Part shown: piece by piece, positions 3,192-30,978 of the stretch
Numbering within the stretch: position 1 is the stretch's first letter
Layout: the number at the start of each line of letters is the position of its first letter
Assembly: GCA_020722315.1 (NCBI GenBank)
Contig: DYLD01000013.1
Location: forward strand, 1-32,444
Length of the DNA: 32,444 bases
DNA from: Syntrophus aciditrophicus
Lineage (GTDB): Bacteria > Desulfobacterota > Syntrophia > Syntrophales > UBA5619
Direction of reading: 5' to 3'
Notes under the pieces: model-generated
What the model was told of the DNA's origin: nothing
Database searches by the model: none
What the model saw: the letters and a program-made list of their open reading frames with translations, nothing else
Position numbers and translations under genes: made by a program

Positions 3192-3386
3192 GAGACCTTT
3201 GAAAAATGGTGCCTGAAGCGCAAATTTATTGATTTTTCTTAGGTACCCCGCCGTGAAGCCCAAGGCTTTTAAAGGCGTCAGGAAGGCGAACTATCCCAGA
3301 GCGCCTATCCTTTGAAGCCTTGAGCGAGACGTTGCGGGGTCGAAAAAGATCCCGTCAGCGCGAAGCCGGCGTTTTCCAAAGGTCTC
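3192..3386 (+). mobile_element. MITE-like palindromic element, copy 3 (full length, no TSD seen)
   Basis: A 195-bp copy in the same orientation as copy 2, from GAGACCTTTGAAAAATGG to GCGTTTTCCAAAGGTCTC. Flanking 5-mers differ (AAAGT and GCTAT), so either the duplication decayed or this copy has recombined. It lies 17 bp upstream of the ribosome binding site of the YihY gene and about 115 bp upstream of the predicted DUF748 promoter, filling the divergent intergenic region. Confidence 0.87.
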
Positions 3387-3580: not shown

Positions 3581-6500
3581 ATGAGCACAACGAAGAAGAC
3601 CGTCTTGATCATTACAGGGGTATTTCTGCTGCTGGTTATTTTCGCGGCTGCAGTTCTGCCGGTTATCATCCGGGACCAGGCCGTCAAGGCCCTTGAGAAC
3701 GCGACAGGAAGAAATGTCCTGATTGAAAAGGTTTCTCTGAATCCCCTGACCTTACGTGTTTCGGTAGATAAATTCTCTGTCGAGGAAAGAGGCGGCGGCC
3801 CCTTTTTTTCTCTCGGGGCGCTGAAGGTGGTGATAAGTCCTTCTTCCATCTACAAGAGGGCGCTCGTCCTTTCCGAGGTTACGATTGATTCTCCTTCGTT
3901 GAGAATTGTCCGCGCCGGCGCAAACCGATTTAACTTTACGGACGTTCTGGAACGCTTGAAGCAGGCAGAGGAAAAGCCGGAAGAAAAGAAGCCGAAAGAG
4001 GGCGCGATTTTTCCTTTTGTCGTGAAAAATGTCCATCTGGTGAATGGTTCCGTCGAATTTGACGACCAGGCAGTTGTGGGCGGCTGTAAACACAGTCTTA
4101 AAAATCTCAAGATAAATCTCCCGTGGCTCAGCAGTCTTCCCGCCGACATCGATAAACAGACAGTACTCGACATGTCGACGATAGCAAACGGCGCATCTTT
4201 GAGTATCCTGGCCAAGAGCAGGCCGTTCAGAGAAGATTTGGCCTCATCGGTCCATATCATCCTTCAGAAATTGGATCTTTCGAGGCTCACGGTTTATGCC
4301 CCTCACCACTTCCCGTTGGAACTGGCATCGGGGCTTTTTGGCCTCGATGCCGAGATCGATTTCCGGCGTGTTGCGCAGGGAAACCCCGCGATCAGCTTTA
4401 AAGGCACCACCCGGCTTGACATGGTCGCTTTGAACCTGAAAAACAAAGAGCCCATTTTAAAGCTTCCCGCGCTTGAGATAAAAGCCGCCAACGTGGAGCC
4501 GTTTGCCGGAATATTCATAATGGAATCGATTACCCTTGACGAACCGGAGTTCTTTGTGCACCGCTACCGGGACGGAAAATGGATGTACGAGGAGCTGCTT
4601 TCTTTTGCACGTCTGAAGACGCCAAAAGGGAAAACCTCAAACAGCCCGGCAGCAGGAACCATAACCGAAGCCAAAGGCCCGTCGAATACTACGGATGTAG
4701 CGTTACCTGCTGCGGCCGGCGGGAGTTCCGTCGTCTCGAAGGGGCACAAAAAACAGCCTGAACCTCCGCAGTTCTCGATCGCCTCCTTCACGATCAAAAA
4801 TGGGCGCATCTATTTTCAGGATGATGTTCCCCCGGGAGGGTTCAAGGCTGAAATCAACGAGGTCAATCTAGCCTCGCAGGAAATTACGAACAGTCCGGGA
4901 AAAACAGCGCAGTATGACCTTTCCCTGCGGGTGCAGAAGAATACCCGGGTCTCTTCGACCGGGAGCTTCACCGTTGCCGAGCCGGGAGCGACGGCTTCTG
5001 TGAAGCTGACGGCTCTTCCTCTCGAGACGGCCCGGCCCTATCTTACGTCCTATTTTTCCTCTCCGGCGAAAGGGGTTGTGAACCTTTCCGGGGACATAGC
5101 CTTCAGCAACCCGGAAGGTTTATCCGTGAATAACGGACATCTCGATCTTAAAAAGTTCTCCGTCAGTTATGGCGAGGGTGAGGGGATTGAACTGGCAACC
5201 CTGACGGTGGACGGCGCGACGTTCCGGCAGCAGAAAAACGATGTCAGGATCGAACGGATCAATCTGTCCGGCGGGGATATCTCGTTATCGCGGGACAGTG
5301 ACGGTACCCTCTCCGTTCAATCACTGATAATCCCGAAGGAAACCGGTAAAACTAAGGAGATACCTTCCACAACAACGGCGAACGGACCGAAAAAATCGGA
5401 GTCGCCGAAACCGTTTGTCTACCATCTGAAACGGGTTGGAATAGACCAATTCAAGGTCGCCTTTATGGATAAAAGCCGCGAGGGAAGTCCCCGCTTTTCG
5501 TTGCGGGATCTCAAGCTCTCCCTGGCCGATTTGCGCGGCCCGGACCCGCAGTTTGCAAAAATGGTTTTTTCTTCGCTTTTCGGAGAGGAGGCGACCATTG
5601 CACTGGCGGGGGATATCATGCCTGCTCCCTTTTGTTATCGTGGGAATCTAAAGATCGGTCGCCTGCCGGTACGGGATTTTGAATCGTATTATCCGGAGAC
5701 ATTCAATTTCCGGGTTCTCGGAGGATTTTTGGATGTCGACACGACGCTCGACATTGCCCTGAAAGACGGGGTGCCGGTGGGCAGCTTTAAAGGAAACGCA
5801 GGGGTCGGTCTTTTGCATGTGGTTGATTCAGTTGAGGAAGAGGACCTTCTAAAGTGGAAACGTTTACAGCTTGACGGCATCGATGGAGACATCAAACCGC
5901 TTCGGCTCGTCGTCGGCCAGGTGTCGCTTAACGAGGTTTATTCGCGGATCATTGTTCGGGAGAACGGGACGATTAATTTACAGGATTTGATTAAAAAGGA
6001 GCAAACCGATTCCCCCAAGACCGAACCGGCGGACGAAGACAAAAAATCCTCTCAAGCCCAGACACCTTCTAAAAAAGAGAACGCACCGAACGTCCGTGTC
6101 GGTGCTGTAACGATCGCAAATGGAACCGTCAAGTTTACCGACAAGCATCTGCCCAATGATTTTGAAACGACGTTCTATAACCTCGATGGGCGACTCAGCG
6201 GTCTTTCATCCGAGTTTTCAACGGTTGCGGATGTAGAGCTCAGGGGCAACCTTGAGAATCACTCGCCTCTTTTAATTGCCGGTAAAATCAACCCGCTACG
6301 GGGGGATCTGTTTGTCGATTTGAAACTTACCTTCTCGGACATTGAACTCTCGCCGATGAGCCCCTACAGTGAAACCTACCTCGGCTATATCCTGAAACAG
6401 GGCAAACTCTTTCTCGATCTGAAGTACCATATTGAAAACAAGAAGCTCGTATCGGAAAACAGGGTCCGCGTCGATCAGTTCACGTTCGGCGACAAGGTCG

Positions 6501-9065: not shown

Positions 9066-9174
9066 GAGAGCTTTGAAAAACGCTGCCTTCGCGCTCATAA
9101 ACCTTTTTCGACCCCGAAAAATCAATAAATTTGCGCTTCAGGCAGTGTTTTTCTTTTGGTTGTGCAAAGCTTTC
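9066..9174 (-). mobile_element. MITE-like element, copy 4 (internally deleted, degraded end)
   Basis: This shortened copy begins GAGAGCTTTGAAAAACGC and passes through CTTTTTCGACCCC, as in the other copies. It then jumps directly to GAAAAATCAATAAATTTGCG, so the GC-rich centre of about 90 bp is missing. The far end is decayed: an extra stretch of about 11 bp precedes CAAAGCTTTC (9165-9174), the relic of CAAAGGTCTC. Flanks are CCTGT (9061-9065) and CTTGT (9175-9179), matching at 4 of 5 positions and plausibly a decayed target duplication. Confidence 0.75.
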
Positions 9175-9537: not shown

Positions 9538-9650
9538 GGAATCTTTGCAAAACCCCAGAGGGATGGTTTCCTAAAGCTTCCTGAGCGCAAATGAAACCGT
9601 CATGGGTAGTTCGGCAAGCTTCTTATAGTATCTTTACCGGTTTTGCACAC
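9538..9650. repeat. Possible second, related short element
   Basis: GGAATCTTTGCAAAACCCC at 9538-9556 resembles the GAGACCTTTGCAAAACGCC end of the main element family. The 9-bp inverted repeat TGCAAAACC/GGTTTTGCA (9546-9554 and 9639-9647) encloses about 84 bp of non-coding sequence with a smaller GGTTTC/GAAACC pair. No clear target duplication is visible. It lies 33 bp upstream of the small hypothetical gene, a position like that of the other copies. Confidence 0.3.
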
Positions 9651-9761
9651 GCTTTTTTATTTCGTCTCCATTGTTGATCTATTGCCGTGACACGCCCACT
9701 AAATCGTCATAGTTTCCAGGGCGAGAATGGGATCGTTGATTAAAGCATCGTCGGAGGCATT

Positions 9762-10109
9762 ATGATCTGGACTATCTGGGTTTTTGTCGCGATATGGTCA
9801 GTTGCAGCCCTGATTATGATCTGGTTAAAGCGCCCGGCGATCATTGTCGTGGGCGGCAGTTTCTTGATGGCTGTTGCGCTTTTGGAGACCTTTGAAAAAT
9901 GCTGCCTGAAGCGCGATTTCAAAGATTTTTCAGGTACCCCGCCACCGTAGCGAGACACCTGCGGGGTCGAAAAAGATCCGATCAGCGCGAAAGGCGGCGT
10001 TTTGCAAAGGTCTCTTTTGGTCATTGTGGATATGATTGCCAAACCACCATCCCGCGTCTCCACAGAAAGCAGTTACAAAACAGCAACGGACAAGCAATCT
10101 GAGAGCTGA
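9762..10109 (+). pseudogene. Small two-helix membrane protein gene split by element copy 5
   Basis: ATG at 9762 with CGGAGG just upstream starts a membrane protein: MIWTIWVFVAIWSVAALIMI, then a second hydrophobic stretch PAIIVVGGSFLMAVALL. At codon 41 element copy 5 (9885-10014) interrupts it, and the frame stops inside the element at 9948-9950. Removing the element and one copy of its TTTTG duplication joins codon 41 in frame to GTC at 10020. The frame then continues VIVDMIAKPPSRVSTESSY and on to TGA at 10107-10109. The restored protein has 70 residues, with the second membrane helix completed across the junction. I do not know its function. As it stands, at most a truncated 62-residue product with a junk tail can be made. 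Confidence 0.8.
9885..10014 (+). mobile_element. MITE-like element, copy 5 (130-bp deletion form, TSD TTTTG)
   Basis: Intact ends GAGACCTTTGAAAAATGC and GCGTTTTGCAAAGGTCTC bracket a shortened centre (CAGGTACCCCGCCACC then ACACCTGCGGGGTCG). Perfect 5-bp duplications TTTTG lie at 9880-9884 and 10015-10019. With intact ends and a perfect duplication inside a still restorable reading frame, this looks like one of the youngest insertions in the window. Confidence 0.92.
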
Positions 10110-10119
10110 TAGATGCACG

Positions 10120-10290
10120 ATGCCGGAGGTGGAAGAATGAAAAAGGGCCTTTTCCTCACTGTCAAGATGCCCGTCATCGTGGGCATAGTCGATGATTCGC
10201 TGATACTCTTTGAGGCGTTACCTCGAGGGCTTGGACTGCCTCATGGATAAGCTTCTGGAGATTGGTTGCGGTTTTACTAGGGTGTTTCAT
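10120..10290 (-). pseudogene. Possible frameshifted small gene (helical, EF-hand-like remnant)
   Basis: On the minus strand an ATG at 10290 (GGAG 9 nt upstream) opens a frame reading MKHPSKTATNLQKLIHEAVQ and so on. After the codons for EVT the protein-like sequence continues in another frame as LKEYQRIIDYAHDDGHLDSE and EKALFHS, as if one C had been gained near 10212. DDGHLDSEE resembles the second half of an EF-hand or a TerB-like acidic turn. The C-terminal end is undefined. A competing plus-strand frame of 37 codons at 10137-10250 has a good GGAGGTG site 7 nt before its ATG. Both are short, and I cannot decide which, if either, is or was a gene. Confidence 0.3.
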
Positions 10291-10318
10291 TGCTTGTCGC
10301 TCCATTATGACATTTTTA

Positions 10319-10342
10319 TTCTTCCGGAGATTCCCGGGAGAA
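10319..10342. terminator. Hairpin just downstream of etfA
   Basis: TTCTTCCGG (10319-10327) pairs with CCGGGAGAA (10334-10342), 8 of 9 positions, around a 6-nt loop. It lies 4 bp beyond the etfA stop and may mark the end of the long operon. It has no T run in the direction of etfA, so it is not a classical intrinsic terminator. Confidence 0.3.
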
Positions 10343-10346
10343 GCGG

Positions 10347-11339
10347 TCATTTTTGTATTTTTTTGATCGCTTCCGTCAGCGCGGGTACGACTTTTCTGTA
10401 ATCACCGACAATTCCAAGGTCCGCCTCCTGAAATATGTGCGCATCAGGGTCTCTGTTTATCGCAACGATGCGCTTCGAGTTCGCGCACCCGATCATATGC
10501 TGAACCGCCCCGGAAATGCCGACCGCAATGTACAGATCAGGCGTCACTATCGAGCCTGTCTGTCCCACCTCGATGCTGGAGGAAACCCAGCCCTCGTCGC
10601 AGGGGACCCTCGTCGCGGCAACCGCGCCTCCGAGGACCTGTGCCAGTTCCTCCAGTATCTTGAATCCTTCGGGTCCGCCGATCCCTCCGCCGCCGGAGAC
10701 GATCGTCTTGGCATCCTCAAGCTTAATGCCGCGGATTTGCTCAGTTCGCGTCTCAACAAGTTCAATCCTGTGTGCCGATTCATAGTCGGCGATGTTAAGA
10801 GTAACGAGCTCACCGGTTCTATTTCTGTCAGGCTCGGCTGCCGGCAAAGACCTGGGTCGCATCGCAACAATGAACGGTCCCGGTCCACCCGAGGTCCAGA
10901 TTGCCGTCGCATTGCCGCCATAGACAGGACGAGTCTGAACCAGCGATCCGGTTTGAGGATCTATATCGACGCCGACGCAGTCCATCGTGACGGCCGCTCC
11001 CAGTTGGGCCGCGAGAGAGGGGGCCACGTCTCTTCCGATATCGGTCTGGCCAAATAGAATGACAAGGGGTGTGATTTCCCGGCATGCCCGTGCAACGATG
11101 GCCGTATAAACATCGGGCGATGAATCTCTAAACGCAGGTGCATCAACCAAATAAACGGTGTCCGCGCCGAGAGAGACAATCTCGCCGGCAGCTTCCCGGA
11201 TATTCTTACCGATGACGAGAGCTCCCAGAGGGCGGTTGATCCTTCCGGCCAGTTTTTGCCCGGCCTGCATCAACTCCTTCGTCATCGTCGTTGCCCTGCC
11301 GTCTGAAATCTCGGTGCAGACCAAAATGCCTGCCGTCAT
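10347..11339 (-). CDS. etfA: Electron transfer flavoprotein, alpha subunit
   Basis: A 330-residue EtfA/FixB protein that binds FAD and carries electrons between acyl-CoA dehydrogenase and the membrane oxidoreductase. The C-terminal FAD domain is clear: GQTGSIVTPDLYIAVGISGA near 254-273, followed by QHMIGCANSKRIVAINRDPD, the family signature, and ADLGIVGD. The N-terminal domain has the expected GALVIGKN and VILFGQTDIGRDVAP stretches. There is no fused ferredoxin domain. ATG at 11339 follows GGAGGACGCGC. It lies 15 bp after etfB and is the last gene of the operon. A FixB role in a FixABCX complex is equally compatible. Confidence 0.93.
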   Translation of the reverse strand: MTAGILVCTEISDGRATTMTKELMQAGQKLAGRINRPLGALVIGKNIREAAGEIVSLGADTVYLVDAPAFRDSSPDVYTAIVARACREITPLVILFGQTDIGRDVAPSLAAQLGAAVTMDCVGVDIDPQTGSLVQTRPVYGGNATAIWTSGGPGPFIVAMRPRSLPAAEPDRNRTGELVTLNIADYESAHRIELVETRTEQIRGIKLEDAKTIVSGGGGIGGPEGFKILEELAQVLGGAVAATRVPCDEGWVSSSIEVGQTGSIVTPDLYIAVGISGAVQHMIGCANSKRIVAINRDPDAHIFQEADLGIVGDYRKVVPALTEAIKKIQK

Positions 11340-12450: not shown

Positions 12451-13736
12451 AACGCTCTTGCCGCCTCGATCAGATCACGGGCCATCCGATAGAACGATAC
12501 CCTTCCTTTCATCTTTTCCCTAAGCAGCTTCCAGGTTCTTTTCCTCGGTTTTCCGTCACTCGTGAATACACTGTCCGCCAGCTCGCAGGCCAGTTTCGGG
12601 TATAGGCTGTAGATGCGCCTGTTCTCGAGGAAATGCGGGGCCTTCTGATGGGTTTTCAAATCCTTAAGGACGAAGCTCTCTTCGAGGAGCTTCTGGTAAT
12701 AACAGAGGGTCTTTGCCGAAAAATCGGACTCCTTGGTTGCCTTCAGTACAGCCTGAGCGGCGGCGATTCCGGACGAAACGGCGAAGTTCGCCCCTTCGAG
12801 GGCGAGTCCCGTGCCAAGAACAAGCGCCGCAGCATCACCGGCCACCAGAAAGCCGTCCGCGTAGAGGCGCCTCGGCATCATCCCGAGGCCCGAAACCGGG
12901 ATCAGATGCGCCGAATATTCGACAAGCCTTCCTCCTTCAATCAGCCCGGCCACCGCAGGGTGTCTCTTGAAATCTTCAAGCAGATCATCCGCCCTGATTC
13001 CGGTTTCGACAAGGCTTTTGAGCCCTACGACAACGCCGACGGAGAGGCTCTCCTTGTTCGTGTAGATAAAGGCCCCGCCGGGCAGTCCCCGGGTGCAGTC
13101 GCCGATGAATTCCCAATCAATCCCTCCGCCGTCAAAGAGGTTGAAACGCCTCGCGACTTCGCCGGGTGGAAATTCGAGCACCTCCTTGACCCCCTGTTTC
13201 ACGTCGCCGGGAAGCAACTCTCCCCTCAAACCGGCCTTTTGGGCCAAAATCGAGTTCACGCCGTCACATGCCACGACGACCCTGGCAGGCAGTTCATCCC
13301 CACCGGCTCTTATTCCCGAAATCCTGCCGCCGTTTTTGAGGACGTCATCCGCCTGCAGTCCGGTTGCGATAATGGCTCCCGCCTGTTGCGCCTTCGAGGC
13401 AAACCAGGCGTCGAATTTCGCGCGGAACATCGTGAAGCCGTTATAGGGCCGGGATTTGAACCTGGGGCCGGTATAATCGACGGATAAACAGCTCTCGCCG
13501 GACAAAAACGAATATCTGTGCTGAAAAATCGGCCTCTCCACCGGAGCCTCTTGCCAGAAGTCCGGCAGCAGATTCGTTAAAACAGGCCCGTAGAACGCCC
13601 CGCCCCATGTGTTCTTTGCGCCGGCGAAGCTGCCCCTTTCGACAACAAGAACCTCAAGACCTTCCTTTGCCAGCGAATACGCGCACGCTGATCCTGCCGG
13701 CCCGGCTCCGACCACTATCGCGTCAAAGACCTGCAT
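12447..13736 (-). CDS. fixC: FixC-family flavoprotein (ETF:quinone oxidoreductase-like)
   Basis: A 429-residue FAD flavoprotein of the FixC/geranylgeranyl-reductase superfamily. It takes electrons from EtfAB and passes them to quinone with FixX. The N-terminal Rossmann motif is VVGAGPAGSACAYSLAKEG (8-26), ending in the acidic VVER strand. A second FAD motif, DGFLVAGDAAALVLGTGLAL, is near residue 290-310. Start ATG at 13736 lies in GTTCGGATGCAGG; the ribosome site is weak (CAGG). A 114-bp gap separates it from the dehydrogenase gene, the largest in the operon, so an extra promoter there is possible. The order fixC-fixX-etfB-etfA, with its overlap and short gaps, supports a single membrane-linked electron module. 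Confidence 0.9.
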   Translation of the reverse strand: MQVFDAIVVGAGPAGSACAYSLAKEGLEVLVVERGSFAGAKNTWGGAFYGPVLTNLLPDFWQEAPVERPIFQHRYSFLSGESCLSVDYTGPRFKSRPYNGFTMFRAKFDAWFASKAQQAGAIIATGLQADDVLKNGGRISGIRAGGDELPARVVVACDGVNSILAQKAGLRGELLPGDVKQGVKEVLEFPPGEVARRFNLFDGGGIDWEFIGDCTRGLPGGAFIYTNKESLSVGVVVGLKSLVETGIRADDLLEDFKRHPAVAGLIEGGRLVEYSAHLIPVSGLGMMPRRLYADGFLVAGDAAALVLGTGLALEGANFAVSSGIAAAQAVLKATKESDFSAKTLCYYQKLLEESFVLKDLKTHQKAPHFLENRRIYSLYPKLACELADSVFTSDGKPRKRTWKLLREKMKGRVSFYRMARDLIEAARAL

Positions 13737-13850
13737 CCGAACCTGCCCAAAACGATCTCATATACGACAGAGAGTCTTCTTTTTGATAAAATCTTTTAAA
13801 CTTTGTCTTCGTAAGCGATGAACCCATTTCTTGAGATAGAGCGACGCATT

Positions 13851-30787: not shown

Positions 30788-30978
30788 GAGAGGTTTGCAA
30801 AACGCCGCCCTCGCGCTCATAAATCTTTTTCGACCCCGCAACGTCTCGCGGCGGCTTCAAAGGCTAAACGCTCTGGGATCGTTCGCGTTTTTAACGCCTT
30901 TAAAGCCTTGGCTTTGACGGCGGGGTACCCCGAAAAATCAATAAATTTGCGCTTCAGGCACCGTTTTTCAAAGGTCTC
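30788..30978 (-). mobile_element. MITE-like element, copy 6 (full length, TSD TTTGC)
   Basis: A 191-bp copy in the orientation of copy 1: GAGAGGTTTGCAAAACGCC at the left, CACCGTTTTTCAAAGGTCTC at the right. Perfect 5-bp duplications TTTGC lie at 30783-30787 and 30979-30983. It has landed between dctP and dctQ, inside what should be one transcription unit. Confidence 0.92.

Follow-up and report, generated by a model that had tools for sequence, protein, structure and literature searches.

The window, meaning the whole stretch of 32,444 nucleotides that was analysed, is contig C41 of a Syntrophales-like genome (3.02 Mb in 422 contigs, 98% complete) for which a Syntrophus MAG (L024) is the closest named relative at the ETF locus. 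The window carries a candidate open reading frame (ORF) interrupted by a small mobile element, further copies of that element, and the remains of a neighbouring gene; strands are given below where one is assigned.

1–155: MITE copy cut by the contig start
1575–1770: long-form MITE copy, 196 bp, with target-site duplication (TSD) TCCTT
3192–3386: long-form MITE copy, 195 bp, without an intact TSD
9066–9174: older, decayed short copy of the MITE, more decayed than the 9885–10014 copy
9762–9884, + strand: codons 1–41 of the putative small membrane-protein ORF, beginning with ATG
9880–9884: left TTTTG copy of the 5-bp target-site duplication
9885–10014, + strand: 130-bp MITE copy of the short form, with TIRs GAGACCTTTGAAAAA / TTTTGCAAAGGTCTC, forming one long hairpin
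9948–9950, + strand: in-frame TAG within the element, with no other in-frame stop ahead of 10107, giving a 62-aa truncated product
10015–10019: right TTTTG copy of the 5-bp target-site duplication
10020–10109, + strand: final 29 codons and stop codon of the same putative ORF, in frame once the element and one TTTTG are removed
10125–10290, − strand: pseudogene of a 67-aa protein, frameshifted and C-terminally truncated
30788–30978: long-form MITE copy, 191 bp, with TSD TTTGC

The earlier note on this DNA had proposed that a mobile element, inserted with duplication of its target, splits a small membrane-protein gene. The event is an ordinary MITE insertion, and the sequence itself had been read correctly and carefully: the coordinates, the TTTTG duplication and the 130-bp inverted-repeat element were all reproduced, as were the sole in-frame stop and the total of 135 bp for the 130-bp element plus duplication. 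The inverted-repeat arms are 30 nt each and 80% complementary, and the hairpin fold of 9885–10014 has an energy of −64.3 kcal/mol (z −7.1). Joining 9762–9884 to 10020–10109 yields a 70-codon frame (MIWTIWVFVAIWSVAALIMIWLKRPAIIVVGGSFLMAVALLVIVDMIAKPPSRVSTESSYKTATDKQSES) whose ATG lies four bases downstream of a GGAGG at 9753–9757 and whose product contains two hydrophobic segments, so that the restored frame, SD site and segment layout described earlier were likewise confirmed on the sequence.

The element belongs to a large family. The genome contains its exact terminal 10-mer 242 times, or once per 12.5 kb, versus 11 times for the reversed control, and 65 places in the genome match the queried DNA, almost all of them over the element only. 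Given that about 60% of the ends are exact in the copies read, the excess of about 231 termini leads to an estimate of 150–200 copies, or about 1% of the genome. The lengths of the 62 copies read cluster at 189–200 bp and 127–130 bp, most being about 193 bp, and the short form, including the 9885–10014 copy, is without the centre of the long form. Exact 5-bp target duplications were found in 29 of the 62 copies, with four of five positions matching in 11 more; about 0.06 exact duplications would be expected by chance among 62 copies, which puts the proposed insertion with target duplication far beyond chance. Copy number, 5-bp duplications, the two length clusters and the internally deleted short form identify the family as a MITE, one that is short (127–200 bp) and multicopy with conserved terminal inverted repeats, has a target duplication of fixed length, and carries no transposase gene of its own, since a transposase-sized ORF cannot fit in 130–200 bp and the reading frames there are all short. 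Two other lengths were also seen, a very short one of 78 bp (L064, 517–594) and one of 223 bp that has an additional terminus (L047, 451–673), which suggests more size variants or nested insertions.

Insertion ages within such a family are readable from the decay of the target-site duplications and from divergence. The 9885–10014 copy lies 7.1% from a short-form consensus built on 7 copies, other short copies lie 4–10% from consensus and most long copies 7–19%; the best match among the genome's other copies reaches 92% identity, and the 422-contig assembly yielded nothing near-identical. At 7% divergence the expected fraction of intact 5-bp duplications is (1−0.07)^10 = 0.48, close to what the 62 copies display, and because about half of the duplications still match at that divergence the perfect TTTTG pair says little about youth. 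By these comparisons the insertion appears not to be recent, and the earlier description of it as such is unsupported. Many contigs (for example C39, C47, C48, C62 and C68), as well as the window itself, start inside a copy of the MITE, indicating that the assembly breaks at these repeats. The youngest copies may be under-represented in it, and near-identical recent copies missing at contig breaks could bias the age estimate upward.

The mobilising enzyme was presumably an ISNme1-type transposase of the IS5 family, an assignment made because the termini and TSD length match and not from a resident parent. For ISNme1, of the IS5 family, a published table gives the termini GAGACCTTTGCAAAA / TTTTGCAAAGGTCTC (PMC4596501), and the right 15-nt end of the 9885–10014 copy, TTTTGCAAAGGTCTC, equals an ISNme1 terminus, with one mismatch at the left end. 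A complete 1222-bp element with TSD GGCCT at 12569–13790 of an IMG/VR viral contig (L236) encodes an IS5-family transposase (NF033581, 2e-66); its 15-nt terminus is identical to the right end of the 9885–10014 copy, again with one mismatch on the left, and the MITE thus shares its termini and duplication length with an IS encoding an ISNme1-type transposase. Relatives of this transposase are present in 23 of 155 genomes of the order, and five 1.4-kb elements in the order combine related termini and 5-bp TSDs with the same type of IS5-family enzyme. No ISNme1-type or IS5-type transposase was detected at E ≤ 1e-10 in the organism's own 422-contig assembly, many of whose contigs break inside the repeat, so that a resident parent IS could be lost there. 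A search for termini paired at 0.8–3 kb in stretches of the same genome turned up only short elements or unrelated genes, as did a search around isolated termini in 20 stretches from other genomes.

The genome's only DDE_Tnp_1 transposase, on contig C146, was considered as the parent and rejected because it has no GAGACC termini. This 564-aa protein adjoins a second transposase-like ORF (L086, 301–834), which is flanked by the inverted repeat AGGTAATTAGGG and which may resemble IS1595/ISXO2. IMG/VR contigs also contain MITE-like elements that share the termini of the 9885–10014 family and its 5-bp duplications (L235, 5405–5546; L185, 1368–1548 and 4532–4712).

The flank of the insertion is decaying and gene-poor, and another small gene has been lost from it. 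L024 has a 67-aa gene next after ETF-alpha (3690–3893, + strand); the homologue of this gene in the window (10290–10125, − strand) is spread over two reading frames and lacks the C-terminal end. The protein of about 67 aa reads MMKPSKSATNLKDIINNAIQDLEITPEEYSQIMDSANEDGHIDKEEQVLLSQ...IKRV and has relatives in six further genomes of the order among 61 sampled. Relatives carrying the interrupted form with decayed flanks had been named in advance as speaking against a recently broken gene; the decayed flank was found, and no such relative was.

The reading of the 70-codon frame that survives best, and that we consider somewhat more probable than not, is that non-coding or decaying DNA happened to be open here by chance and that the insertion broke nothing. 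Scar-spanning ORFs of at least 70 codons with any start appear at 18 of 31 empty sites of the family in the same genome (9 of 31 with an ATG), and in 57% of Markov sequences of local composition (26% with an ATG). The earlier argument that a random site would seldom yield such a frame is therefore unsupported for the frame alone; with at least 70 codons at more than half of the empty sites, the fact that a frame can be restored across a scar says little in favour of a gene. No homologue of the restored ORF was found in 155 genomes of the order, an outcome that the earlier note had itself named as contradicting a real gene. A comparison with 100 relatives likewise gave nothing above chance: the best distant protein matches (E 0.014–0.1, in 9 of the 99 other genomes) were rejected as a chance number, and Pfam, NCBIfam, PHROGs and phage genomes gave nothing above noise, to which we also assign a PHROG match at E 0.018. 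The candidate has a synonymous codon score of −0.14; all 71-codon windows from genes score higher (mean 0.14, sd 0.08), and the value fits the null for non-coding sequence (−0.21, sd 0.11). By this test, a weak one given 62 informative codons, codon usage is not host-like. In the nearest relative no such ORF lies in the interval behind ETF-alpha, and the adjacent pseudogene is likewise consistent with a frame open by chance. An Rfam search returned nothing credible; a scan of 9550–10350 detected no promoter-like site, and only as many terminator-like sites as chance would give.

What a chance frame accounts for less readily is the joint presence of an ATG, an SD site and two hydrophobic segments, a combination rare by chance. 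An ATG with an SD-like 4-mer and at least 70 codons arose in 1.4% of simulations, and 2 of the 31 real sites have all three; among 340 ORFs of 55–95 aa from the same DNA, 1.2% score two hydrophobic segments. These figures are to be read with the fact that these features were chosen after seeing the candidate ORF and the 2 of 31 counted after the fact. The suggestion that the second helix is completed across the scar is weaker than it first appeared, the interrupted 62-aa ORF already scoring two segments. The case for a real gene thus retains its start codon, SD site and two-helix layout, but not homology or gene-like codon choice, and we regard a gene here as possible but doubtful.

The fuller claim, that a recent insertion broke a real and recently functional small membrane-protein gene, is unlikely. 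It draws on the same start, SD site and segments together with the perfect TSD, but would have to accommodate the lack of homologues in the 155 genomes and of profile matches above noise, the non-coding-like codon choice, an element diverged by 7% and a decayed neighbouring gene. A functional in-frame peptide insertion of 135 bp, like the Rickettsia palindromic elements, is highly improbable: the combined length of element and TSD is a multiple of three in 27 of the 62 copies, but this barely exceeds one third, and the in-frame TAG refutes the idea for the 9885–10014 copy under the standard code.

The account that we favour, and hold to be very probable, is that an old IS5-type MITE, mobilised in trans, inserted with a 5-bp TSD within a 70-codon frame of decaying DNA. 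An ISNme1-type IS5-family transposase would have recognised the GAGACCTTTGNAAAA termini in trans, and a 5-bp staggered cut would have duplicated TTTTG. The inserted copy would be the 130-bp internal-deletion form of the MITE of about 193 bp, the long form presumably having come first. Its landing site may have been a taxonomically restricted membrane-protein gene or a non-coding frame, and in either case the insertion would cut the product to 62 residues. A more ambitious scenario, in which a lineage-specific small membrane protein was silenced by a member of a large MITE family and the family's transposase later disappeared from the genome, is rather improbable; if true, the divergence of the insertion could date both losses.

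These results describe an additional IS5-type MITE family, present at high copy number in a Syntrophales-like organism. ISNme1 has been proposed as the parent of the ATR (AT-rich repeat) MITEs of Neisseria meningitidis (PMC4596501), which resemble the present family in being small and non-autonomous and in having an attributed parent whose termini match those seen here. Unlike ATR, the family lies in a different phylum, its estimated 150–200 copies contrast with 19 reported for ATR, and an ISNme1-type parent was not found in this genome. BrickBuilt of Porphyromonas gingivalis also has IS5-type termini, GAGACCTTTGCA / TGCAAAGGTCTC (PMC4596501), but contains internal tandem repeats and has irregular TSDs, whereas the present family showed no tandem repeats and regularly has a TSD of 5 bp. 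Elements of this kind can be numerous: according to a review, E. coli has 30 ERIC copies, Salmonella 150 and Photorhabdus 711 (PMC10969869). Within the same order, another genome (G034) has a set of 142-bp MITEs, which have the same 15-nt termini and mostly 5-bp TSDs, but differ in internal sequence and number only about 9 copies.
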